Assembly (NCBI RefSeq): GCF_000948285.1
Contig: NZ_JYBP01000003.1
Location: 1,860,001-1,924,000, forward strand
Direction: 5' to 3'
Length of the DNA: 64,000 nt
Source: Geobacillus kaustophilus
Lineage (GTDB): Bacteria > Bacillota > Bacilli > Bacillales > Anoxybacillaceae
The notes under the pieces are model-generated. The model worked only from the letters and a program-made list of their open reading frames with translations. It was not told the DNA's origin and made no database searches. The translations under genes and the position numbers were made by a program. Each line of letters opens with the position of its first letter. Position 1 is the first letter of the stretch. Of this stretch, positions 6,985 to 21,965 are shown piece after piece.

Positions 6985-7329
6985 AGGCTAAATACATTTT
7001 TGATTTTGTTTCTCGTAGTAAGAATTAATAAGCATTTCCACTATATTATTACTACCAATCAGACCAATTGGATTTTTTATTTTTTCCCCTTCCTCTTTAG
7101 AAATAGGCTCTAATTCTGCTATTGGTGTATTCGCATCCCCTCGACTCACAAAATATTCCTTGCCATTGTAAAACACAAAATCAGGTAACTCATATTTTGC
7201 AGGGTTGAATTTCCCTTTAGACAATTTCCCAATAATTTTCCATTCTTTATTAACGATTCCATATATTCCACTGTTAATAGTATATAGAACAGAAAGTTTT
7301 TCAAATTGATTACTAAAGTTTTTTATATC

Positions 7330-8664
7330 GGTTCATCACCAAAAGATGTACTTGCACCTGCCATTAAAGTATGTTAGTCGTTTCTAACCGAACCCGTAAT
7401 GCAAAACGCTGGATATTTCTGTATCCATATCCTCGACGTTTGATCAGCTTGATCTTGTTGTTCGTTCCTTCCATTTTCCCATTCGAGTAAGGGGATAAAA
7501 TGCAAGAAACGATTTCTTCTGTTCGCTTGACGAGCGCTTTTGCAATCGCGCGCACAACCGAACAAGGACAAAACGAATACCGATGAATCCAAGACTCCAA
7601 ACGTCGTTTCGCCTGTTGCTCGTCTTTGCTTTTGGACACATAACGAAAATGTTGGAGCGATTGGTAGACCGACTTTAAGTCATCGCTTTCATTACACCAT
7701 TCTCGTACGATTTGACGTTCTTCCTCCGTCAATTTCTCTGGGCATGTGCTCAATAAACGGCAAACGTAACGAACATTTCCGTGTTTCCTGCTTCCTTTGT
7801 CTACATATTTGCGGCAACGATCTAAAGCATCCGTAAACAGCTGAATGACATGGAAATAATCGACCACGTGTGTCGCCTCTGGGCAACCCCCTTGAATGGC
7901 TTTTTTCATCGCTGGGGCTAAATCGCTTACGACATACTGAACAGAACGAGACACATGCGCCAACGCACGTCTGATGGCTTCCTCGTTCTTTCCAGCTTCG
8001 ATGGCATACCCTTCTCCCGTCTCGGCATCCATGATCGCCACTCCGTAGTCATGCCCTTTTCGAAAGGCAAATTCATCGACACAAACCGCCTTTGGTTGGA
8101 TATCATTCGATAGGAAGGAAGGGGCATGGGTATAAAACCAACGTTCCACGGTCGTGTAAGGGAGTTTGAGCATCCGAGCTACTGCCTGAATGGATGTCCC
8201 GATGCAAGATTGCGCCACCCATTGCTGAAAAGCGTCTGTTGCCACACTTGGAGGGGAGATTCCTGGATAAGACGTGCTGAACGTCATGCCACACGTACTA
8301 CAACGTCTGCGCTCGACAGGGAGTTCAATCCAAAAAATCCCGATTCGTTGAGCATAGCCATGCATCCATTGCTTCTTTTTTCCTGTCATTTTGATCGTGC
8401 GTTTCAAGCAGACAGGACATAACGGGCATTGTTCAGGTAGAGAAAGTTCGAAAATCCAACGATCTCCTTCTTTTCGCACCTTTTGAATCAAAACATCTGG
8501 TAAATCGATAAGTTCTTTGATAAACTGAGAGTACATGCGAATTTTCCTCCAATGGTTTGGTTTGGTCACCTTTACCATACAGGAAAATTCGCATTTTTTG
8601 TACCCTCTATTTTCGCTATGCACACCGATCTTAAATCATCAAGTACAACTTGTGGTGAAGAGCC
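7330..8664 (-). mobile_element. ISL3-family element, type a, copy 1
   Basis: A 1335-bp element. The ends are GGTTCATCACCAAAAGATGT (left) and GGCTCTTCACCACAAGTTGT (right, reverse strand). An 8-bp target duplication TTTATATC is present at 7322-7329 and 8665-8672, inside Imm26 gene 1. The same element and length recur at 20631-21965. Confidence 0.93.
7364..8536 (-). CDS. ISL3-family transposase (type a), copy 1
   Basis: About 390 residues from the ATG of MYSQFIKELIDLPD, preceded by TTGGAGGAAAATTCGC. An upstream in-frame Met at 8623 has no comparable site. It shows the CPVCLKR and CSTCGMTF zinc-finger pairs, VCVDEFAFRKGHDYG, VVSDLAPAMKKAI with VVDYFHVIQLF, and the terminal NGKMEGTNNKIKLIKRRGYG. 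The frame is intact. It differs from copy 2 by a few residues (SYPGI instead of SYPEI, DYGVA instead of DYAVA). Confidence 0.92.
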   Translation of the reverse strand: MYSQFIKELIDLPDVLIQKVRKEGDRWIFELSLPEQCPLCPVCLKRTIKMTGKKKQWMHGYAQRIGIFWIELPVERRRCSTCGMTFSTSYPGISPPSVATDAFQQWVAQSCIGTSIQAVARMLKLPYTTVERWFYTHAPSFLSNDIQPKAVCVDEFAFRKGHDYGVAIMDAETGEGYAIEAGKNEEAIRRALAHVSRSVQYVVSDLAPAMKKAIQGGCPEATHVVDYFHVIQLFTDALDRCRKYVDKGSRKHGNVRYVCRLLSTCPEKLTEEERQIVREWCNESDDLKSVYQSLQHFRYVSKSKDEQQAKRRLESWIHRYSFCPCSVVRAIAKALVKRTEEIVSCILSPYSNGKMEGTNNKIKLIKRRGYGYRNIQRFALRVRLETTNIL

Positions 8665-8754
8665 TTTATATCTAATATTTCATTAGTAAAGATATCGAAA
8701 TATTGTATATAGATGTCATCCTTTAATCCTTTTCCTTTTACTCACGAGTGTTGA

Positions 8755-9888
8755 TTATCCAAAATTATACATACGCCTTCCATAAATTTGGGCATACTCA
8801 AACAAAGCAGCGGCCATCCCGGATTTCCAATCGAGAGGAAGCTGCCCAGAGAAAAAACGGCGAACGAACGAAATGAAGGAAAGAGAGACGTTCGTCTGTT
8901 TTTTGGTTTGATCATACAGCCATCGCAGCAACACATACGCGATGAACGCCGCAAACAGTTGGTTGTATACCGCATTTTCCGTCGTGCCAAACAAGGTCGG
9001 GACATTCAGATATTGCTTCACCCAACGGAAAAAGACCTCAACAGTCCAACGTTGTTGGTACATGTCGGCAATGGTTTCCGCAGACGCATGGAAGAGGTTC
9101 GTCACGACCCGAATGTCGCGGCCATTCGCATCTCGAAAGATCACCACCCGGTGACGCTTGGTGGAGCGGCATTGTTTCGTCCCCAACTGGCACGTGAAGT
9201 CGGCTTGAACCGATGAGGATGTGCTGGAAAGGCGTTTCAAGCTTTTTTTCTGATGAAGTTCGATGTTGTCCTTCATCCGAATGACAAAGAGCTGATGCTG
9301 CTCCACAAATCGATCGAGGCGTTCGATTTTGAAATACGCCCGGTCTTCCACCAGCACTTGTTGAGCGTTCGTCAACTGTTCTCCCACCGGGCCATCATGA
9401 CGCAGTCCGATGGTTTCCACCACGTCTGCCGGCAACGAGGATTCCGGCGAATACGCGACGTGCAGCTTCACTCCGGCGCGTTCGCCGTGATACGGCGCCC
9501 ATGGCAGGCGGTTTTTCCCGACCGTGACGGTCGTCGAATCCACCACCCGAAGCGGTTTGGGAAACCGAAGCGAACGGCGGGTTTGGCGGTTGCACTTGGA
9601 AATGATCAACGCCAACAAGCGTTTCATGATGTCATAGGGAACTTCTTTCGCTTTCTTGGATACAGTTGAATAATGGAATCGCGGCAATCCATACAGAGGC
9701 CCCACATCGGCTCCGTGGCGAAAGCTTTTCCATTGATGCATGGCGGCCAGCAGGAAGAAGTGAATCAACTCGCGCAACGTAAAGGTTCGAGACGAATCAC
9801 GATACCCAACCGCTTCGGCAATCAGTTGAATCTCTTCATCCGAAACAAGTTTTTGCATCAAATTCGGGAGTGTGGTATGCTTGTTCAT
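8755..9888 (-). CDS. IS4-family transposase, copy 1
   Basis: 377 residues from the ATG eight bases after AGGAGG. A GTG at 9897 overlaps that site and is unlikely to be the start. Catalytic motifs: RVVDSTTVTVGK (Asp), QVLVEDRAYFK (Asp) and YQQRWTVEVFFRWVKQYL (Glu, YREK-type). The frame is complete even though IS66 copy 2 lies between the promoter-side end of the element and the gene, so the gene may lack its own upstream signals. Confidence 0.92.
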   Translation of the reverse strand: MNKHTTLPNLMQKLVSDEEIQLIAEAVGYRDSSRTFTLRELIHFFLLAAMHQWKSFRHGADVGPLYGLPRFHYSTVSKKAKEVPYDIMKRLLALIISKCNRQTRRSLRFPKPLRVVDSTTVTVGKNRLPWAPYHGERAGVKLHVAYSPESSLPADVVETIGLRHDGPVGEQLTNAQQVLVEDRAYFKIERLDRFVEQHQLFVIRMKDNIELHQKKSLKRLSSTSSSVQADFTCQLGTKQCRSTKRHRVVIFRDANGRDIRVVTNLFHASAETIADMYQQRWTVEVFFRWVKQYLNVPTLFGTTENAVYNQLFAAFIAYVLLRWLYDQTKKQTNVSLSFISFVRRFFSGQLPLDWKSGMAAALFEYAQIYGRRMYNFG

Positions 9889-9996
9889 AGAGAGCACCTC
9901 CTGGGTTTGTTTGTGTCGCTACTCACATTCTACAGGAAAGGTGCTCTTTTTTCGTAACTATTCAGCCACCTCATAAAGTGAGCTGAATATTTTTTG

Positions 9997-10144
9997 GGTT
10001 CATCACCAAAAGATGTACTTGACTTTTAAAGACAAACATGATAGCAATGTTGCTCAAAGAGATGTGTGGTATAAAAAAATGCTGTTTTGGTTTTCTTTAT
10101 CATGATCGTCTTTCTTTGTCAAGTACACTGTGTGGTGAAGATCC
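9997..10144. mobile_element. ISL3-ended miniature element (family A), copy 1
   Basis: A 148-bp element with ISL3-like ends (GGTTCATCACCAAAAGATGT and, reverse strand, GGATCTTCACCACACAGTGT). It has no coding capacity. It is flanked by the 8-bp duplication ATTTTTTG at 9989-9996 and 10145-10152 within the left end of IS66 copy 2. The interior matches the copy at 18621-18774 in the opposite orientation. It was presumably mobilised by an ISL3 transposase such as the type-a copies nearby. Confidence 0.9.
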
Positions 10145-10200
10145 ATTTTTTGGTTTTCCTGTCTATGATGTGAATATTGATAGACAAGGAGGTGAATCGC

Positions 10201-11649
10201 ATGTTGACGGTACAACAAGCTGTATTGACGGTTGAAAGCTTAATCAGCAAAGTCCAACAACAAAAACAGCTCATTCATCAACTCATTCAAGAAAATGAAC
10301 ATTTGCGTCAAGAAAACAAACAGCTACGCAAAGAAAATGAACAACTGAAGTATCGTGTTCAAGAGCTGGAAGCACGCACGAAAAAAAACAGCTCTAATAG
10401 CCATCTGCCCCCATCTTCTGACCGTTTTGAGAAAAAGCGTTCCTCTCGTGAACCGTCTGACAAAAAGCCTGGCGGACGGGAGGGACATGAGGGAACGACG
10501 CTCCGTCAAGTGGAACATCCACATCATCGTGTCGTCCATCGCGTACATACGTGTCAAGGATGCGGGTCTTCTTTGCGTGACGTAAAACCGTTCAAAGTCG
10601 ATGTCCGTCAAGTGTTTGATCTGCCTCCCGTGACGATGGAAGTGACACAACATGAACGCGAAGTGAAATCATGTCCACATTGCCGATGCGTGCAACAAGC
10701 CGAGTTCCCATCACACGTCACCAATCATGTGCAATATGGTCCACGGATCACGGCGCTTGTCGTGTATTTATACAACATACAAATGATTCCATATCAACGT
10801 TTACGTGACATGATGGAAGAGCTATATCAACATCCGATCAGCACAGGAACACTTGTCAATATGGTCAAACGAGGTCGCGAAGCACTCGAACCAAACATGG
10901 ACATCATCGAGGAAGCATTGCTTCAATCGGACATCTTGCATGTCGATGAAACGAGCTTGCGGATCGATGGCAAACAGGCCTGGGTTCATGTCGCCTGTAC
11001 ATCCGCATATACGTACTTAGCTCCTCACGCTTCTCGTGGAAAGAAAGCAACCGATGAAATCGGGATTCTTCCACGATATAAAGGAACGATGATGCATGAT
11101 GCATTCGGTACATACCCGAGATACACCGAAGCCACACATGCCCTTTGTCATGCCCATCATTTACGTGACTTGAAAGGATTCATCGAACAAGGGCATACAT
11201 GGGCAAAACGGATGACCACGTTTCTATTAAATGCCAAACAAGTGGTCGAACAACATGGTGGCTTTCTTCCTGAAGAAGAAGCGAAACGTTGGGAGCACGT
11301 GTATGATCGCATACTCGAGAAAGCCAACCATCAGTTGGAAGGGATGACACCGTTGCCGAAAAAAGCGCTCTCCTTCGTTCGGCGACTTCAAAAACGAAAG
11401 GAAGAAGCGTTGCGCTTTTTGCGTGAAGCTCACGTTCCTTTTGACAACAACCAAGCCGAACGGGATCTTCGCATGGTCAAAGTCAAAGAGAACATCTCGG
11501 GTACATTTCGTCAGGAAACGTTCGCGCAGTCGTTTTGCATCGCAAGGAGCATCGTTTCCACACTCACCAAGCACGAAAAAAACGTGTGGGACTCGTTGTG
11601 TCTTCTGTTGACAGGCGAAACGATAGATCGTGTTCTTTCCGCTACGTAG
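10201..11649 (+). CDS. IS66-family transposase, copy 2
   Basis: An intact 482-residue TnpC-type transposase, with the same start context as copy 1 (GGAGGTGAATCGC then ATG). It differs from copy 1 at scattered residues (ESLISKVQ instead of ESLMGKVQ, HHLRDLKG instead of HHVRGLKG). The miniature element inserted about 55 bp upstream may have displaced its promoter. Confidence 0.92.
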   Translation: MLTVQQAVLTVESLISKVQQQKQLIHQLIQENEHLRQENKQLRKENEQLKYRVQELEARTKKNSSNSHLPPSSDRFEKKRSSREPSDKKPGGREGHEGTTLRQVEHPHHRVVHRVHTCQGCGSSLRDVKPFKVDVRQVFDLPPVTMEVTQHEREVKSCPHCRCVQQAEFPSHVTNHVQYGPRITALVVYLYNIQMIPYQRLRDMMEELYQHPISTGTLVNMVKRGREALEPNMDIIEEALLQSDILHVDETSLRIDGKQAWVHVACTSAYTYLAPHASRGKKATDEIGILPRYKGTMMHDAFGTYPRYTEATHALCHAHHLRDLKGFIEQGHTWAKRMTTFLLNAKQVVEQHGGFLPEEEAKRWEHVYDRILEKANHQLEGMTPLPKKALSFVRRLQKRKEEALRFLREAHVPFDNNQAERDLRMVKVKENISGTFRQETFAQSFCIARSIVSTLTKHEKNVWDSLCLLLTGETIDRVLSAT

Positions 11650-12163
11650 GGCATTTTCTATGACAGAAATGCCCTATTTGTGCTGGGCTACTTTACACAC
11701 TAGCATCGGGGTGAATAGTTACCTTTTTTCTATACCCTTTGGATTTTATTGGATAATCAACACGCCTGCCTTTTACTACTAAACCATAAGCATATTTTTC
11801 AATTTCTTTAAGCGGGATTGCGAATACAATACCTGGTTCAATATTAGGCGTCTTTCTTTTCTTTTTCAATTTAAAATTTACATCGACGATTTCCATTTCC
11901 CCTAATTGTTCATTAATATTTGAATCAAGTTGTAAAGCCTTCAAAATTAATGCTTCTAATTCAGCTACCGTTGGCATTCTTTCTAAATCTTCTTGATAAA
12001 TTTTTTTGATTTCTAAGAGCGTATCACTGAACAAATCGATTGCATCATCACTTAAAACAACTGTTTCCTTGTTCCTTATGCTTTCCCAAAATGACATTGT
12101 ATCACCAACCATACCATCTTATTACTACTTTTTCTTGAGTCAATAGCTTATCTAAATTGTTAT

Positions 12164-12210: not shown

Positions 12211-12627
12211 CTATCGTACTGTTTGCTTTTGCTTTATTTTTTCAAACCAATTTTCTGCAATATCCAAATATGGTAAAACATTCTTAGCTATTCGAATAAA
12301 TTCTGCTTCCTCTAAATTTTCGTTTTCGTTATCGAATTTAAACCAATCCTTATCTCCATTTTTATTATTCATTATTCTAAAACGATTGTTTAAGTGAAAA
12401 GCGTTCATCTTTTGAAATGGTCGAACGATACCATCAACTACCACGTTTTCTTCCTCATTAACCCTTGCTACTCCAGCTTCTATTATAAATCCTCCTCCCC
12501 ATTTATCAAATTGAAACGATAGCAAATAACCTAACTGACCTTCTTGCTTCCTAAAATGAGGAAAAGCCCCTTTAAATCCCCTGTTTCTTAATTCTGGGAC
12601 TACTATTTTCTTTAAAGCACCGACCAT
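12211..12627 (-). CDS. DUF4304-like immunity protein 1
   Basis: 138 residues from ATG at 12627 (MVGALKKIVVPELRNRGFKG). The fold signature GFKGAFPHFRK ... YLLSFQFDKWGGGFIIEAGV fits DUF4304, often found among Rhs/CDI immunity genes. The paralogue at 22320 starts seven codons earlier at an ATG behind AAAGGGGG. Here that codon is ATA, so the ancestral start is lost and translation would depend on the weak AAGGAT before the internal ATG. The assignment as immunity is by family and context. Confidence 0.65.
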   Translation of the reverse strand: MVGALKKIVVPELRNRGFKGAFPHFRKQEGQLGYLLSFQFDKWGGGFIIEAGVARVNEEENVVVDGIVRPFQKMNAFHLNNRFRIMNNKNGDKDWFKFDNENENLEEAEFIRIAKNVLPYLDIAENWFEKIKQKQTVR

Positions 12628-16245: not shown

Positions 16246-17494
16246 CACGAGTGTTGATTATCCAAAATTATACATACGCCTTCCATAAATTTGGGCATAC
16301 TCAAACAAAGCAGCGGCCATCCCGGATTTCCAATCGAGAGGAAGCTGCCCAGAGAAAAAACGGCGAACGAACGAAATGAAGGAAAGAGAGACGTTCGTCT
16401 GTTTTTTGGTTTGATCATACAGCCATCGCAGCAACACATACGCGATGAACGCCGCAAACAGTTGGTTGTATACCGCATTTTCCGTCGTGCCAAACAAGGT
16501 CGGGACATTCAGATATTGCTTCACCCAACGGAAAAAGACCTCAACAGTCCAACGTTGTTGGTACATGTCGGCAATGGTTTCCGCAGACGCATGGAAGAGG
16601 TTCGTCACGACCCGAATGTCGCGGCCATTCGCATCTCGAAAGATCACCACCCGGTGACGCTTGGTGGAGCGGCATTGTTTCGTCCCCAACTGGCACGTGA
16701 AGTCGGCTTGAACCGATGAGGATGTGCTGGAAAGGCGTTTCAAGCTTTTTTTCTGATGAAGTTCGATGTTGTCCTTCATCCGAATGACAAAGAGCTGATG
16801 CTGCTCCACAAATCGATCGAGGCGTTCGATTTTGAAATACGCCCGGTCTTCCACCAGCACTTGTTGAGCGTTCGTCAACTGTTCTCCCACCGGGCCATCA
16901 TGACGCAGTCCGATGGTTTCCACCACGTCTGCCGGCAACGAGGATTCCGGCGAATACGCGACGTGCAGCTTCACTCCGGCGCGTTCGCCGTGATACGGCG
17001 CCCATGGCAGGCGGTTTTTCCCGACCGTGACGGTCGTCGAATCCACCACCCGAAGCGGTTTGGGAAACCGAAGCGAACGGCGGGTTTGGCGGTTGCACTT
17101 GGAAATGATCAACGCCAACAAGCGTTTCATGATGTCATAGGGAACTTCTTTCGCTTTCTTGGATACAGTTGAATAATGGAATCGCGGCAATCCATACAGA
17201 GGCCCCACATCGGCTCCGTGGCGAAAGCTTTTCCATTGATGCATGGCGGCCAGCAGGAAGAAGTGAATCAACTCGCGCAACGTAAAGGTTCGAGACGAAT
17301 CACGATACCCAACCGCTTCGGCAATCAGTTGAATCTCTTCATCCGAAACAAGTTTTTGCATCAAATTCGGGAGTGTGGTATGCTTGTTCATAGAGAGCAC
17401 CTCCTGGGTTTGTTTGTGTCGCTACTCACATTCTACAGGAAAGGTGCTCTTTTTTCTATACCCTTTGGATTTTATTGGATAATCAACACGCCTG
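16246..17494 (-). mobile_element. IS4-family element, copy 2
   Basis: 1249 bp with ends CACGAGTGTTGATTATCCAA and CAGGCGTGTTGATTATCCAA. The 9-bp duplication GTCGCATTG lies at 16237-16245 and 17495-17503, inside the Rhs core. In the stretches I compared it shows no difference from copy 1, suggesting recent transposition. Confidence 0.94.
16258..17391 (-). CDS. IS4-family transposase, copy 2
   Basis: 377 residues, the same protein as the copy at 8755-9888, with ATG 17391 eight bases after AGGAGG. This copy keeps an uninterrupted element around it, so it is the more likely functional source of the transposase. Confidence 0.93.
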   Translation of the reverse strand: MNKHTTLPNLMQKLVSDEEIQLIAEAVGYRDSSRTFTLRELIHFFLLAAMHQWKSFRHGADVGPLYGLPRFHYSTVSKKAKEVPYDIMKRLLALIISKCNRQTRRSLRFPKPLRVVDSTTVTVGKNRLPWAPYHGERAGVKLHVAYSPESSLPADVVETIGLRHDGPVGEQLTNAQQVLVEDRAYFKIERLDRFVEQHQLFVIRMKDNIELHQKKSLKRLSSTSSSVQADFTCQLGTKQCRSTKRHRVVIFRDANGRDIRVVTNLFHASAETIADMYQQRWTVEVFFRWVKQYLNVPTLFGTTENAVYNQLFAAFIAYVLLRWLYDQTKKQTNVSLSFISFVRRFFSGQLPLDWKSGMAAALFEYAQIYGRRMYNFG

Positions 17495-18431
17495 GTCGCA
17501 TTGCCTTTTTTCATCGCAAGGAGCTGCCCGTTTTCTCCGTATATATACGATCTTACCACATTTCCGCTTGCATCGGTTTCATACAGAACGTTCAGGCTGT
17601 CGCCTTGGTAATGGTAGTTCGTCACGACGCCATTGACATTCTTTTGGATGCGCCGGCCGTCTTCATCATATTTGTACGTCACAAAAGGAGTGCTTTCACC
17701 TTTTCTTGTAATCGAGACGAGCTGGTCGGCTGCGTTCCATTCATATTGATACTGACCGTCTTCCAATCGGTTGCCGTTCGCATCGTACGTGATTGTTTCG
17801 TCACCGAAACGAACCAACTGATTCGCCGCATTATAATCAGCCGTGGTCGTCGTCGACTGCCCATCCTTGGTTTTCACGATTTGCTTCCGGTTTCCGAATC
17901 CGTCATAGGCATACTCGATTTTCGTGCCATCTGGAAGCTGCTCTTCCACTAATTGGTCTAGGGCATCGTAACGGTAGACGGTCGTTTCCCCCGTTGGGGA
18001 TTCCACTTTCGTCCGGTTGCCGTTTTCATCGTAACGGTATGTTTCCGATAAAATTTCTTTTCCGTCCGCCGTACCGATCGAAACGCTTTCCACTAAGCCG
18101 CGGTCATCATACGTAAAGGTCGAACCGGCCCCATTTCCTGTCGTGAAGGTGCGAACGTTTCCTCTCTCGTCATAGTCAAAGCGGTACGTATACGTTCCAT
18201 CTTGGACGACCGTATTTTGATCCAATGCATTATATTGGTAATGGATCGTTTGGCTAAAGGACCCATGAGAGAACATGAACTGCTGCAATTTATCCGATGT
18301 GGTTGGGTACAGCCATTTTTGCAGCCCGCCACGGTCCGACAGTTCCACCAGCCGATTCGCTTTATCAAATGTTCTTGTTTTGGTCGTACCGTCTTTTAAA
18401 TATTGTACAGAAAGTTTGTTTCCGTTTTTAT

Positions 18432-18889: not shown

Positions 18890-18986
18890 TATACATGCTC
18901 ATTAAAAAGTTAACCTTCGTATAACCGATGCACACTCCAGTTATCCTGTTCCTAAGGAAACCTATGGAAAAGGAGCGGGATCATTC

Positions 18987-19517
18987 ATGAAACGTCTCAA
19001 CATCACCCATGATCACGGATGGACGCCACGGACGCTTCGCAAACAGGAACGGAAAATCAAAAACGCGCTTCTTCGCCAACGGGTGATGGCGGTTCGTTTG
19101 GTCATGGAAGGTTATTTGGGCAAAGAGGCGGCCTCCATGGTCAACGTGTGCCGACAAACCGTTTCCCATTATGTGTCGCTGTTCAACGAAGGCGGTCTGG
19201 AGCTCTTGCTTCATCGGGATTTCGCCCCTGGACGGGAGCCGTTTCTCACCGAAGAACAGCAGGAAGAGATCAAACAGCTTGTGTTGACCACCACTCCCGC
19301 GGAACTGGGCTGGGACGTCGCTTCGGCCTGGAACACCAAACTCCTGCAATCCTATGTCGAAAAGCACTTTGGTGTTTGCCTTTCCCGTGAAGCGCTGCGA
19401 AAACTCCTGCACCGTCAAGGTCTGTCATGGACTCGCCCTACGTACACGCTGGCGAAAGGGAATCCGGATGAGCAAAAGCAATTTGAAAAGCAAATGGATT
19501 TGATAAAAAAAACTTGA
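18987..19517 (+). CDS. IS630 transposase orfA, copy 2
   Basis: A 176-residue DNA-binding half with the same sequence as copy 1 as far as I compared it. It starts 8 nt after GGAGCGGGATC and ends at the A8 slippage site. Confidence 0.9.
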   Translation: MKRLNITHDHGWTPRTLRKQERKIKNALLRQRVMAVRLVMEGYLGKEAASMVNVCRQTVSHYVSLFNEGGLELLLHRDFAPGREPFLTEEQQEEIKQLVLTTTPAELGWDVASAWNTKLLQSYVEKHFGVCLSREALRKLLHRQGLSWTRPTYTLAKGNPDEQKQFEKQMDLIKKT

Positions 19518-20053
19518 TCACCAAGGAGACAGAAGATGCCGTTCTTCTGTACATCGATGAAACGCATATCCGCTCTTATCATGTCTTGCGATCCACTTGG
19601 TCCGAGGTCGGTCGTCAAAAACGTGTGCCGACATTCGGCCATCATGCCCATGTTTCGGTATTTGGCGCGGTGAACGTCCACGATGGGGACATCGTGCTTC
19701 ACCAAACAGAAGCCGCCAACGCCGCGACGTTCTTGGATTTCTTGCGCCTGCTCAAAGAGCGGCATCCCAACCGGATCATTGCGCTCGTCTTGGACAATGC
19801 CCGGATTCATCACGCTCGAATGGGGAAGGACTTTTTGCGAGAAGAAGGACAATGTTTTCATTTCCTGTATCTGCCTCCCTACTCGCCGCAGCTCAACCCG
19901 ATCGAGCGTTTGTGGAAATGGCTGAAGGATACGATGATCGCCAACGCCTTTCACAAAGACCGCCACGAGATCGTGCAAGCGGTTCAACGATTTGCTCATT
20001 ACATTCAGGAACGCCCGGAGGAAGTGTTGCGGCGCTTGGGGTGTTCCGCGTAA
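19514..20053 (+). CDS. IS630 transposase orfB, copy 2
   Basis: A 179-residue catalytic half with YIDETHI, LDNARIHHA and NPIERLWKWLK. It lies in the -1 frame to orfA. It carries ARMGKDFL as in copy 3. Confidence 0.9.
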   Translation: MITKETEDAVLLYIDETHIRSYHVLRSTWSEVGRQKRVPTFGHHAHVSVFGAVNVHDGDIVLHQTEAANAATFLDFLRLLKERHPNRIIALVLDNARIHHARMGKDFLREEGQCFHFLYLPPYSPQLNPIERLWKWLKDTMIANAFHKDRHEIVQAVQRFAHYIQERPEEVLRRLGCSA

Positions 20054-20085
20054 TCGAAAAGTTAACTTTTCAAGGTGCATTTATA

Positions 20086-20438
20086 TAGATGTCATCCTTT
20101 AATCCTTTTCCTTTTACTACTAAACCATAAGTATATTTTTCAATTTCTTTAAGCGGGATTGCGAATACAATACCTGATTCAATATTAGGCGTCTTTCTTT
20201 TCTTTTTCAATTTAAAATTTACATCGACGATTTCCATTTCCCCTAATTGTTCATTAATATTTGAATCAAGTTGTAAAGCCTCCAAGATTAATGCTTCCAA
20301 TTCAGCTACCGTTGGTTTTCTTTCTAAATCTTCTTCATAAATTTTTTTGATTTCTAAGAGCGTATCACTTAACAAATCGATCGCATCATCACTTAAAACA
20401 ACTCTTTCCTTGTTCTTTACGCTTTTCCAGAGTGACAT
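20086..20438 (-). pseudogene. Imm26-like immunity gene 2, 3' half missing
   Basis: Starts MSLWKSVKNKERVVLSDDAI at 20438 and is closely similar to Imm26 gene 1 (IESGIVFAIPLKEIEKYTYGLVVKGKGLKDDIYI). IS630 copy 2 interrupts it at a TA and the remaining roughly 125 codons are absent. Its intact sequence across the IS4 insertion point of gene 1 confirms how gene 1 should read. It lies downstream of DUF4304 gene 2, in the same order as the paralogous pair. Confidence 0.78.
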
Positions 20439-20630: not shown

Positions 20631-21965
20631 GGTTCATCACCAAAAGATGTACTTGCACCTGCCATTAAAGTATGTTAGTCGTTTCTAACCGAACCCGTAA
20701 TGCAAAACGCTGGATATTTCTGTATCCATATCCTCGACGTTTGATCAGCTTGATCTTGTTGTTCGTTCCTTCCATTTTCCCATTCGAGTAAGGGGATAAA
20801 ATGCAAGAAACGATTTCTTCTGTTCGCTTGACGAGCGCTTTTGCAATCGCGCGCACAACCGAACAAGGACAAAACGAATACCGATGAATCCAAGACTCCA
20901 AACGTCGTTTCGCCTGTTGCTCGTCTTTGCTTTTGGACACATAACGAAAATGTTGGAGCGATTGGTAGACCGACTTTAAGTCATCGCTTTCATTACACCA
21001 TTCTCGTACGATTTGACGTTCTTCCTCCGTCAATTTCTCTGGGCATGTGCTCAATAAACGGCAAACGTAACGAACATTTCCGTGTTTCCTGCTTCCTTTG
21101 TCTACATATTTGCGGCAACGATCTAAAGCATCCGTAAACAGCTGAATGACATGGAAATAATCGACCACGTGTGTCGCCTCTGGGCAACCCCCTTGAATGG
21201 CTTTTTTCATCGCTGGGGCTAAATCGCTTACGACATACTGAACAGAACGAGACACATGCGCCAACGCACGTCTGATGGCTTCCTCGTTCTTTCCAGCTTC
21301 GATGGCATACCCTTCTCCCGTCTCGGCATCCATGATCGCCACTGCGTAGTCATGCCCTTTTCGAAAGGCAAATTCATCGACACAAACCGCCTTTGGTTGG
21401 ATATCATTCGATAGGAAGGAAGGGGCATGGGTATAAAACCAACGTTCCACGGTCGTGTAAGGGAGTTTGAGCATCCGAGCTACTGCCTGAATGGATGTCC
21501 CGATGCAAGATTGCGCCACCCATTGCTGAAAAGCGTCTGTTGCCACACTTGGAGGGGAGATTTCTGGATAAGACGTGCTGAACGTCATGCCACACGTACT
21601 ACAACGTCTGCGCTCGACAGGGAGTTCAATCCAAAAAATCCCGATTCGTTGAGCATAGCCATGCATCCATTGCTTCTTTTTTCCTGTCATTTTGATCGTG
21701 CGTTTCAAGCAGACAGGACATAATGGGCATTGTTCAGGTAGAGAAAGTTCGAAAATCCAACGATCTCCTTCTTTTCGCACCTTTTGAATCAAAACATCTG
21801 GTAAATCGATAAGTTCTTTGATAAACTGAGAGTACATGCGAATTTTCCTCCAATGGTTTGGTTTGGTCACCTTTACCATACAGGAAAATTCGCATTTTTT
21901 GTACCCTCTATTTTCGCTATGCACACCGATCTTAAATCATCAAGTACAACTTGTGGTGAAGAGCC
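20631..21965 (-). mobile_element. ISL3-family element, type a, copy 2
   Basis: 1335 bp, identical in length to copy 1, with the 8-bp duplication GAATAAAT at 20623-20630 and 21966-21973. The insertion lies in DUF4304 gene 2. Confidence 0.94.
20665..21837 (-). CDS. ISL3-family transposase (type a), copy 2
   Basis: A 390-residue intact transposase, start MYSQFIKELIDLPD behind TTGGAGGAAAATTCGC. It keeps the zinc-finger Cys pairs and the C-terminal GTNNKIKLIKRRGYG block, and shows only isolated differences from copy 1. Confidence 0.93.
   Translation of the reverse strand: MYSQFIKELIDLPDVLIQKVRKEGDRWIFELSLPEQCPLCPVCLKRTIKMTGKKKQWMHGYAQRIGIFWIELPVERRRCSTCGMTFSTSYPEISPPSVATDAFQQWVAQSCIGTSIQAVARMLKLPYTTVERWFYTHAPSFLSNDIQPKAVCVDEFAFRKGHDYAVAIMDAETGEGYAIEAGKNEEAIRRALAHVSRSVQYVVSDLAPAMKKAIQGGCPEATHVVDYFHVIQLFTDALDRCRKYVDKGSRKHGNVRYVCRLLSTCPEKLTEEERQIVREWCNESDDLKSVYQSLQHFRYVSKSKDEQQAKRRLESWIHRYSFCPCSVVRAIAKALVKRTEEIVSCILSPYSNGKMEGTNNKIKLIKRRGYGYRNIQRFALRVRLETTNIL

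Follow-up and report, generated by a model that had tools for sequence, protein, structure and literature searches.

An Imm26-like gene of Geobacillus kaustophilus interrupted by four mobile elements, with an inner loaded element also present at a second site

The window, a 64-kb stretch of the Geobacillus kaustophilus chromosome, contains an Imm26-like gene interrupted by four mobile elements, namely an ISL3 element, an IS4 element, an IS66 element, and a MITE. Specifically, the ISL3 and IS4 elements are adjacent in the gene, IS66 lies within IS4, and the 148-bp, ISL3-ended MITE lies within IS66 (Table 1). The surroundings are a partly broken WapA/Rhs toxin-immunity array, and the DUF4304 gene next to the broken gene is 98% identical to its counterpart in the relative G005, where the gene order is the same. 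The 5' piece of the Imm26-like gene is an open frame with 92% identity to the uninterrupted G005 gene. When the flanks are rejoined in silico, the pieces join exactly, and the 732-nt open frame originally claimed for excision of all four elements is recovered from the ATG at 12097 as 243 codons plus a stop; from the alternative ATG at 12112, the frame has 248 codons. Within the broken pieces themselves, there are neither stops nor frameshifts, which suggests that the breakage is recent.

Table 1. Features of the interrupted Imm26-like locus and of the second Imm26-like copy (positions in the window; TSD, exact duplication bordering an element).
Feature	Position	Strand	Details
Imm26-like gene, 3' piece	6988..7329	-	includes stop codon; 98.5% identity to G005
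ISL3-family element	7330-8664	-	1335 bp; TSD TTTATATC at 7322-7329 and 8665-8672
ISL3 transposase ORF	7364-8623	-	419 aa, intact; PF01610 E=1e-53; NF033550 255.6 bits (cut-off 180)
Imm26-like gene, middle piece	8673..8742	-	between IS4 and ISL3; 91% identity to four uninterrupted relatives
IS4-family element	8743-11768	-	3026 bp loaded, 1249 bp unloaded; TSD CCTTTTACT at 8734-8742 and 11769-11777
IS4 transposase ORF	8755-9897	-	380 aa, intact; NF033592 E=2.5e-66, 224.1 bits (cut-off 115)
IS66-family element	9954-11722	+	1769 bp loaded, 1613 bp unloaded; TSD CTTTTTTC at 9946-9953 and 11723-11730
MITE, ISL3-type ends	9997-10144	+	148 bp; TSD ATTTTTTG at 9989-9996 and 10145-10152
IS66 transposase ORF	10177-11649	+	490 aa, intact; NF033517 E=1.6e-103, 346.7 bits (cut-off 180)
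Imm26-like gene, 5' piece	11778..12112	-	ATG 12097, alternative ATG 12112; ends at one IS4 duplication copy
DUF4304 gene	12211..12627	-	intact; directly upstream of the broken gene; PF14137 E=3.1e-28
Second Imm26-like copy, truncated	20089..20438	-	continuous across the IS4 site; cut off by an IS630-family element

In the assembled sequence, each element is bordered by its own exact 8- or 9-bp TSD, in line with the four exact duplications of the original prediction, and the inverted-repeat ends match at 22 (ISL3), 23 (IS4), 19 (IS66), and 21 (MITE) of 30 positions. Two random positions of the region are identical with a probability of 3.0e-5 for 8-mers and 9.4e-6 for 9-mers; these values, together with the exact TSDs at other copies in the genome, rule out a chance origin of the duplications. 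Exact TSDs of 9 bp are found at 12 of the 13 places with IS4 (the 13th, 79% identical, has no resolvable ends), and exact TSDs border 12 of 16 scored IS66 copies and 7 of 10 scored ISL3 copies, with at least 16 and at least 10 copies, respectively, in the genome; the lists for ISL3, IS66, and the MITE, drawn from 40 scored first-look candidates, are lower bounds, unlike that of IS4. These other copies also define, and thus fix, the ends of the elements in the immunity gene. The ISL3 element combines a DDE transposase, an 8-bp TSD, and matching terminal repeats; the IS4 element has an IS4 transposase and a TSD of constant 9-bp length at independent copies; and the IS66 element has an 8-bp TSD and an IS66 transposase of the tnpC type that also matches PF03050 and zf-IS66. 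A search of the latter element for accessory tnpA and tnpB genes gave a single sense ORF with a length of 80 aa or more, which places it in the IS66 family yet outside the three-gene subgroup (tnpA, tnpB, tnpC); it is likely to be a member of the single-gene ISBst12 subgroup. Since all three IS have kept intact ends and an intact transposase frame, each outer IS may remain mobile together with its load. IS66 sits in the 5' leader of IS4, and the MITE in the 5' leader of IS66; leaders may be favoured as landing places because a host IS hit there retains both ends and its transposase gene.

The original prediction stated that alignment of the three pieces to different genes in relatives would speak against it. 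In four relatives, they align contiguously to one gene that is uninterrupted at both insertion sites, namely in G005 (95.2% identity over 775 nt), G002 (91.6% over 747 nt), Aeribacillus composti (92.2% over 774 nt, 1 gap), and Anoxybacillus rupiensis (86.7% over 768 nt, 3 gaps), which rules out an origin from different genes. Element ends, duplications, and uninterrupted orthologues therefore agree on one Imm26-like gene holding four elements at three levels of nesting. The proposed Imm26 identity is borne out by the intact orthologues, whose proteins all (4/4) match Pfam Imm26 (PF15428) above the cut-off (48.3-58.8 bits against 23.3), while the 3' piece alone scores 18 bits (E=0.0036), below the same cut-off of 23.3, and a Pfam scan of the 5' piece alone gave no match. 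The intact orthologues are under purifying selection, with a dN/dS of 0.10-0.17 in six of six pairs; the 5' piece of the broken gene has higher values, 0.17-0.38 against the four relatives and 0.6 against the truncated paralogue, and the constraint on this copy may thus have weakened, before or after breakage. The truncated paralogue, in which an uninterrupted start had been pointed out at about 20086-20438, is indeed intact across the IS4 site; it is 92% identical to the broken gene over 410 aligned positions including 12 gaps, carries CCTTTTACT once, at 20110, and borders an IS630 element whose transposase matches NF033545.

The interrupted gene is probably one that protects cells from the toxin of a neighbour. 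In A. composti, the Imm26 gene lies four bases from a WapA gene, the tip of which weakly resembles GIY-YIG (E=0.034, below cut-off); PMC3482391 pairs Imm26 (PF15428) with Tox-URI1. The orthologues resemble the Imm26 proteins of polymorphic toxin systems in matching Imm26 and, in one case, in directly following a WapA gene, whereas the window gene is broken, and a search of 14 genus genomes with the one toxin tip from the other genus found no closely related cognate toxin. The sole relative of the WapA tip found in these genomes (49% over 69 residues, with an internal stop) is located near a different Imm26 gene. With this single A. composti tip as the reference, the broken gene would be an orphan Imm26-type immunity gene, and with no close cognate toxin remaining, its loss would have been tolerated.

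For the four element families, the window is the densest 64 kb found on the chromosome, with 11 of 61 copies (the copy lists being lower bounds), while the maximum in 2000 uniform simulations was 9 copies per 64 kb, a post hoc comparison in which nested elements are counted separately. The high IS density may reflect weak selection in a dispensable and repetitive array. Very probably, an orphan Imm26-type gene in the WapA/Rhs array was broken by ordinary transposition, with IS66 and the MITE nested in IS4. Specifically, ISL3 (8-bp TSD) and IS4 (9-bp TSD) would each have inserted into the coding sequence, in either order, IS66 would have entered the short 5' leader of IS4, the non-autonomous MITE would have entered the short 5' leader of IS66, and the MITE-loaded IS66 probably has moved as one unit.

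A second site, 1.24 Mb away (G000:C3:624683-626451), holds an identical MITE-loaded IS66 (1769/1769 bp the same) flanked by a different TSD, GAACAGTT. The genome also has a near-identical segment (L119) in which this site is empty, with a single target octamer, and it is likewise empty in the relatives G003 and G013; the identity of the two copies and the empty site indicate that the loaded IS66 probably jumped as a unit. The earlier claim that nesting fixes the order of three insertions thus holds in that each inner element entered its outer element once the latter existed, but it does not extend to the order of arrival at this locus. For the MITE, the claim was overstated because the MITE may have been aboard before IS66 reached IS4, given the identical loaded element elsewhere with its own TSD; insertion of the MITE last and in place is not required. 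As loaded elements can move, nesting dates an inner element relative to the existence of the outer one and not to its arrival at a given address, which corrects a common inference. On balance, the evidence leans towards IS66::MITE being a working compound element, in which a non-autonomous, ISL3-type MITE became cargo of the autonomous IS66 by insertion into the short leader that separates its terminal repeat from its transposase gene and has since been spread by the IS66 transposase, and the MITE would be moved by two unrelated transposases. If loaded transposition is true, MITEs gain a second route of spread via unrelated IS families.

Two loaded IS66 identical throughout could also be produced by homologous recombination (gene conversion) that spreads the MITE among IS66 copies instead of loaded transposition, for which the at least 15 full-length IS66 copies of the genome, with 0-22 pairwise differences, provide the substrate. 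With the MITE removed, the loaded elements differ by one base from the nearest unloaded copies of equal length (L037, L038), and this base, a G, is common to four of the more distant unloaded copies (L040, L043, L044, L046), so that some exchange between IS66 copies is possible. Nevertheless, conversion is an unlikely source of the second loaded copy, as it requires the prior insertion of an unloaded IS66 at a site that is empty, with its single octamer, in L119, G003, and G013, whereas loaded transposition is one event. The probable movement of IS66 and the MITE as a unit also raises the question of IS4, whose intact ends and transposase frame would allow it to have reached the immunity gene already loaded with both, as a single 3-kb composite insertion. 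Such an arrival is quite unlikely, since the other resolved IS4 copies are all unloaded (11/11, 1249 bp), the IS4/IS66 junction occurs once, in the window only (one of 14 genus genomes), and no second loaded IS4 was found. For the same reasons, the insertion of IS4 before IS66 at the immunity gene is the simplest reading; it stays short of proof because a loaded IS4 could move by cut and paste. The unloaded sequence of the window IS4 is identical to 9 of the 11 other copies and one SNP from the remaining two. A 601-bp junction query from the broken gene matched seven plasmid records, none over more than 80% of its length, and the best places listed are 46-47 bp at the right end of IS4.

Every part of the structure is a multi-copy repeat, which could in principle have led the assembler to misjoin repeat copies, but an artefact is extremely improbable: every one of the elements is bordered by a separate exact TSD, the sequences flanking the structure on either side correspond to those of uninterrupted orthologues, and the assembly consists of 3 contigs with 100% completeness.

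The methods of PMC4072520 already deal with nested IS insertions as a known situation, and the locus shares with nested IS of other IS-rich bacterial genomes the presence of IS within IS; compared with these, it has three levels in one gene, four exact TSDs, three intact transposase frames, and a loaded inner element that is also found at a second site. In PMC8024623, the active IS of Geobacillus kaustophilus HTA426 are ISGka1-5, with direct repeats of 4-9 bp, Table 4 includes the IS4, IS66 (ISBst12 group), and ISL3 families, ISGka3 (IS4) yields 9-bp repeats, and a search of the main text for "mite" gave no hit. HTA426 belongs to the same genus; the elements described here are known from sequence alone. 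Among the literature matches listed, titles and abstract starts contain no description of this case. The parts all belong to familiar classes and moved by standard transposition; the layering is unusually clear, and the carriage of an ISL3-type MITE within IS66 is of modest added interest. The locus provides a clean natural record of IS pile-up in dispensable genes, with empty sites for both the gene and the second loaded IS66.

The first 25 bases of the MITE are those of the ISL3 left end, and the element has no transposase gene and folds as one long hairpin (z = -3.8, as DNA). The genome contains at least 20 MITE loci, and 16 of the 20 scored have an exact 8-bp TSD, two being the loaded IS66. 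The element is thus short, lacks a transposase, and has autonomous-type ends and the same TSD length, as an ISL3-ended MITE does; the common ends and TSD length suggest that it may be mobilised by the ISL3 transposase. A search for an autonomous parent gave six candidate places with partial matches only. The MITE as a promoter source for the IS66 transposase is without support, since the one promoter-like site in 9900-10260 is on the opposite strand and equals the shuffle mean of 1.0.

MITEs within repeats were surveyed at 55 loci, 20 from the genome of the window and 35 picked from a longer list in six other genomes. Other MITEs sharing both flanks were rejected as repeat riders: L011, L093, and L095 are orthologous sites in different genomes, L077/L088 and L078/L084 reflect a duplicated stretch in G011, and the L012/L027 pair is an artefact because L027 also includes the L012 MITE, its own MITE having been left out of that scoring. 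One-sided flank matches are also present, several of them to ISL3 ends. Lastly, one IS630 copy of this genome holds a second MITE of the family in its leader, and the leader cases seen number three (IS66 in IS4, MITE in IS66, and MITE in IS630) against one coding case with a deletion.

The Imm26-like gene is a single interrupted gene: its three pieces lie contiguous and insert-free in two other genomes of the genus (G005 and G002) and in two related species, Aeribacillus composti and Anoxybacillus rupiensis. Specifically, the 3' piece is present in 3 of 14 genus genomes, the window's own included, and the joined flanks align at 95.2% over 775 nt in G005 and at 91.6% over 747 nt in G002. Public genomes searched with the 5' piece returned four loci: insert-free genes in Aeribacillus composti (92.2% identity, 1 gap position) and Anoxybacillus rupiensis (86.7%, 3 gap positions), and partial matches in Anoxybacillus thermarum and Anoxybacillus tengchongensis. 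The four target duplications (TSDs) and four end pairs that had been described are all present in the sequence of this 3.68-Mb, three-contig genome, and scripted excision of the inserts reproduced in silico the 732-nt open frame (243 codons plus stop) with zero internal stops. All four intact orthologue proteins pass the Pfam cut-off for Imm26, the 3' piece of the broken gene scores below it, and a Pfam scan of the 5' piece gave no match. Among the four intact orthologues dN/dS is 0.10-0.17 in all six pairs and, therefore, the gene family is maintained; against G005 the values are 0.35, 0.03 (23 codons), and 0.15 for the 5', middle, and 3' pieces, and the 5' piece reaches 0.6 against its truncated paralogue. 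The window's copy has as yet neither stops nor frameshifts, and its breakage is probably recent.

The mechanism is standard transposition by known families. The ISL3, IS4, and IS66 transposases each score above the curated NCBIfam cut-off with intact reading frames. IS4 is present in the genome in 12 near-identical copies and a further one of 79% identity; there are at least 15 full copies of IS66 and an interrupted one, at least 10 near-complete ISL3 copies, and at least 23 near-full-length copies of the miniature element (MITE), the last three counts being lower bounds because 40 of 62 (ISL3), 102 (IS66), and 85 (MITE) first-look candidates were scored. The left end of ISL3 is identical to the first 25 bases of the MITE, which folds into a single long hairpin (z -3.8) and has an 8-bp TSD, exact in 16 of 20 loci. 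MITE-related matches occur in all 14 genus genomes, in several of which the terminal repeat alone matches. In G011, another genome of the genus, one MITE (L090) joins the left flank of locus L079 to the right flank of L080 with no TSD, and looks like a rearrangement through recombination between MITE copies.

Coordinates of the compared features (G000, the window's own genome; C3, its contig)
Feature	Position	Remark
Duplicated region, loaded place	G000:C3:622500-628500	carries MITE-loaded IS66
Duplicated region, empty place	1928794-1931893 (L119)	without IS66
Second MITE-loaded IS66	G000:C3:624683-626451	TSD GAACAGTT
IS66 copy broken within its gene	G000:C3:2171597-2174709 (L050)	
Toxin-tip relative, IS4 copy, and Imm26-family gene	G000:C3:1857500-1860400 (L121)	spans window's left edge
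IS4 copy in Rhs/WapA gene	window 16247-17495	TSD GTCGCATTG
ISL3 copy in second DUF4304 gene	window 20631-21965	TSD GAATAAAT
IS630	window 18905-20088	ends second Imm26 copy
TATATA in second Imm26 copy	window 20070-20100	
TATATA in Anoxybacillus thermarum orthologue	L029 3166-3230	

The noteworthy feature is that the MITE-loaded IS66 is present at two sites. The original prediction, right in its observation and essentially right in its reading, erred in holding the insertion order to be fixed by the nesting; the nesting stands, and the fixed order is unsafe, since all 1769 bp of the window's loaded IS66, MITE included, recur at a second site under a different TSD. A counterpart of the region around this second copy lies 6 kb beyond the window's right edge, at chromosome position 1930294; the two places, ~1.3 Mb apart, align in stretches of 1610 and 1511 bp (99.8-99.9% identity), probably through a recent duplication. 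At position 1930294 the IS66 site is empty, with the octamer in single copy, and it is empty in two further genomes of the genus (G003 and G013). The simplest account is a single entry of the MITE into an IS66, followed by a jump of the loaded element. The MITE/IS66 junction occurs in 1 of 41 family genomes, the window's own, twice. Without its MITE, the window's IS66 is one base off each of the two nearest unloaded copies of equal length; the differing G is found in four more distant unloaded copies, so it does not single out the two loaded elements. The IS4/IS66 junction occurs once, in 1 of 14 genus genomes, so the IS66 probably entered the window's IS4 in place, and it is unlikely that the IS4 reached the gene already carrying it.

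By ORF and boundary coordinates, the IS66 occupies positions 1204-1211 of the IS4 (1249 bp), within the leader of 94 bp on the 5' side of the transposase gene, and the MITE occupies positions 36-43 of the IS66 (1613 bp), within the leader of 67 bp on the 5' side of the transposase frame. An IS630 copy (L027) likewise has a MITE of this family in its leader. A contrary case is the IS66 copy broken within its gene, with ~500 bp missing; the leader position is a suggestive pattern in small numbers. A preference for AT-rich leaders as targets would render selection unnecessary, and the TSDs seen are for the most part AT-rich. In the broken IS66 copy, the missing part is replaced by a stretch that contains an oppositely oriented relative of IS66 type at 64% identity.

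URI and GIY-YIG nucleases share the same fold. In Aeribacillus composti, the Imm26 gene lies 4 bases from a WapA gene with a GIY-YIG-like tip, a weak match below cut-off. This arrangement agrees with PMC3482391, in which Imm26 is paired with the URI nuclease Tox-URI1. Of the 14 genus genomes, one has a relative of this tip (49% identity over 69 residues), namely the window's own, where the GIY-YIG-like Rhs tip has an internal stop and lies near an open Imm26-family gene other than the broken one, with an IS4 copy between. The broken gene thus resembles an orphan immunity gene, and losing it, we infer, would cost little.

From ORF translations, the window holds a WapA/Rhs array beside pyrimidine genes; its Rhs frames are partly fragments and partly long and open, and one Rhs/WapA gene of the array is split by an IS4 copy. 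In a post hoc test that counted nested elements singly and used lower-bound copy lists, 10 of 61 listed copies of the four families fall in the window vs 1.09 expected, 11 fall in the 64 kb from 1858556, and 2000 runs of uniform placement gave a maximum of 9 in any 64 kb. The ISL3 copy that splits a second DUF4304 gene differs from the one at 7330 at 3 positions. The second Imm26 copy ends at an IS630 with unrelated sequence on its far side, so the 3' half of this gene copy was lost via deletion or rearrangement and not by a simple IS630 insertion. This copy and the Anoxybacillus thermarum orthologue each have an IS630-type element in the same TATATA; the two elements differ from one another and point in opposite directions, and the site is possibly an IS630 hot spot that the gene shares across two genera.
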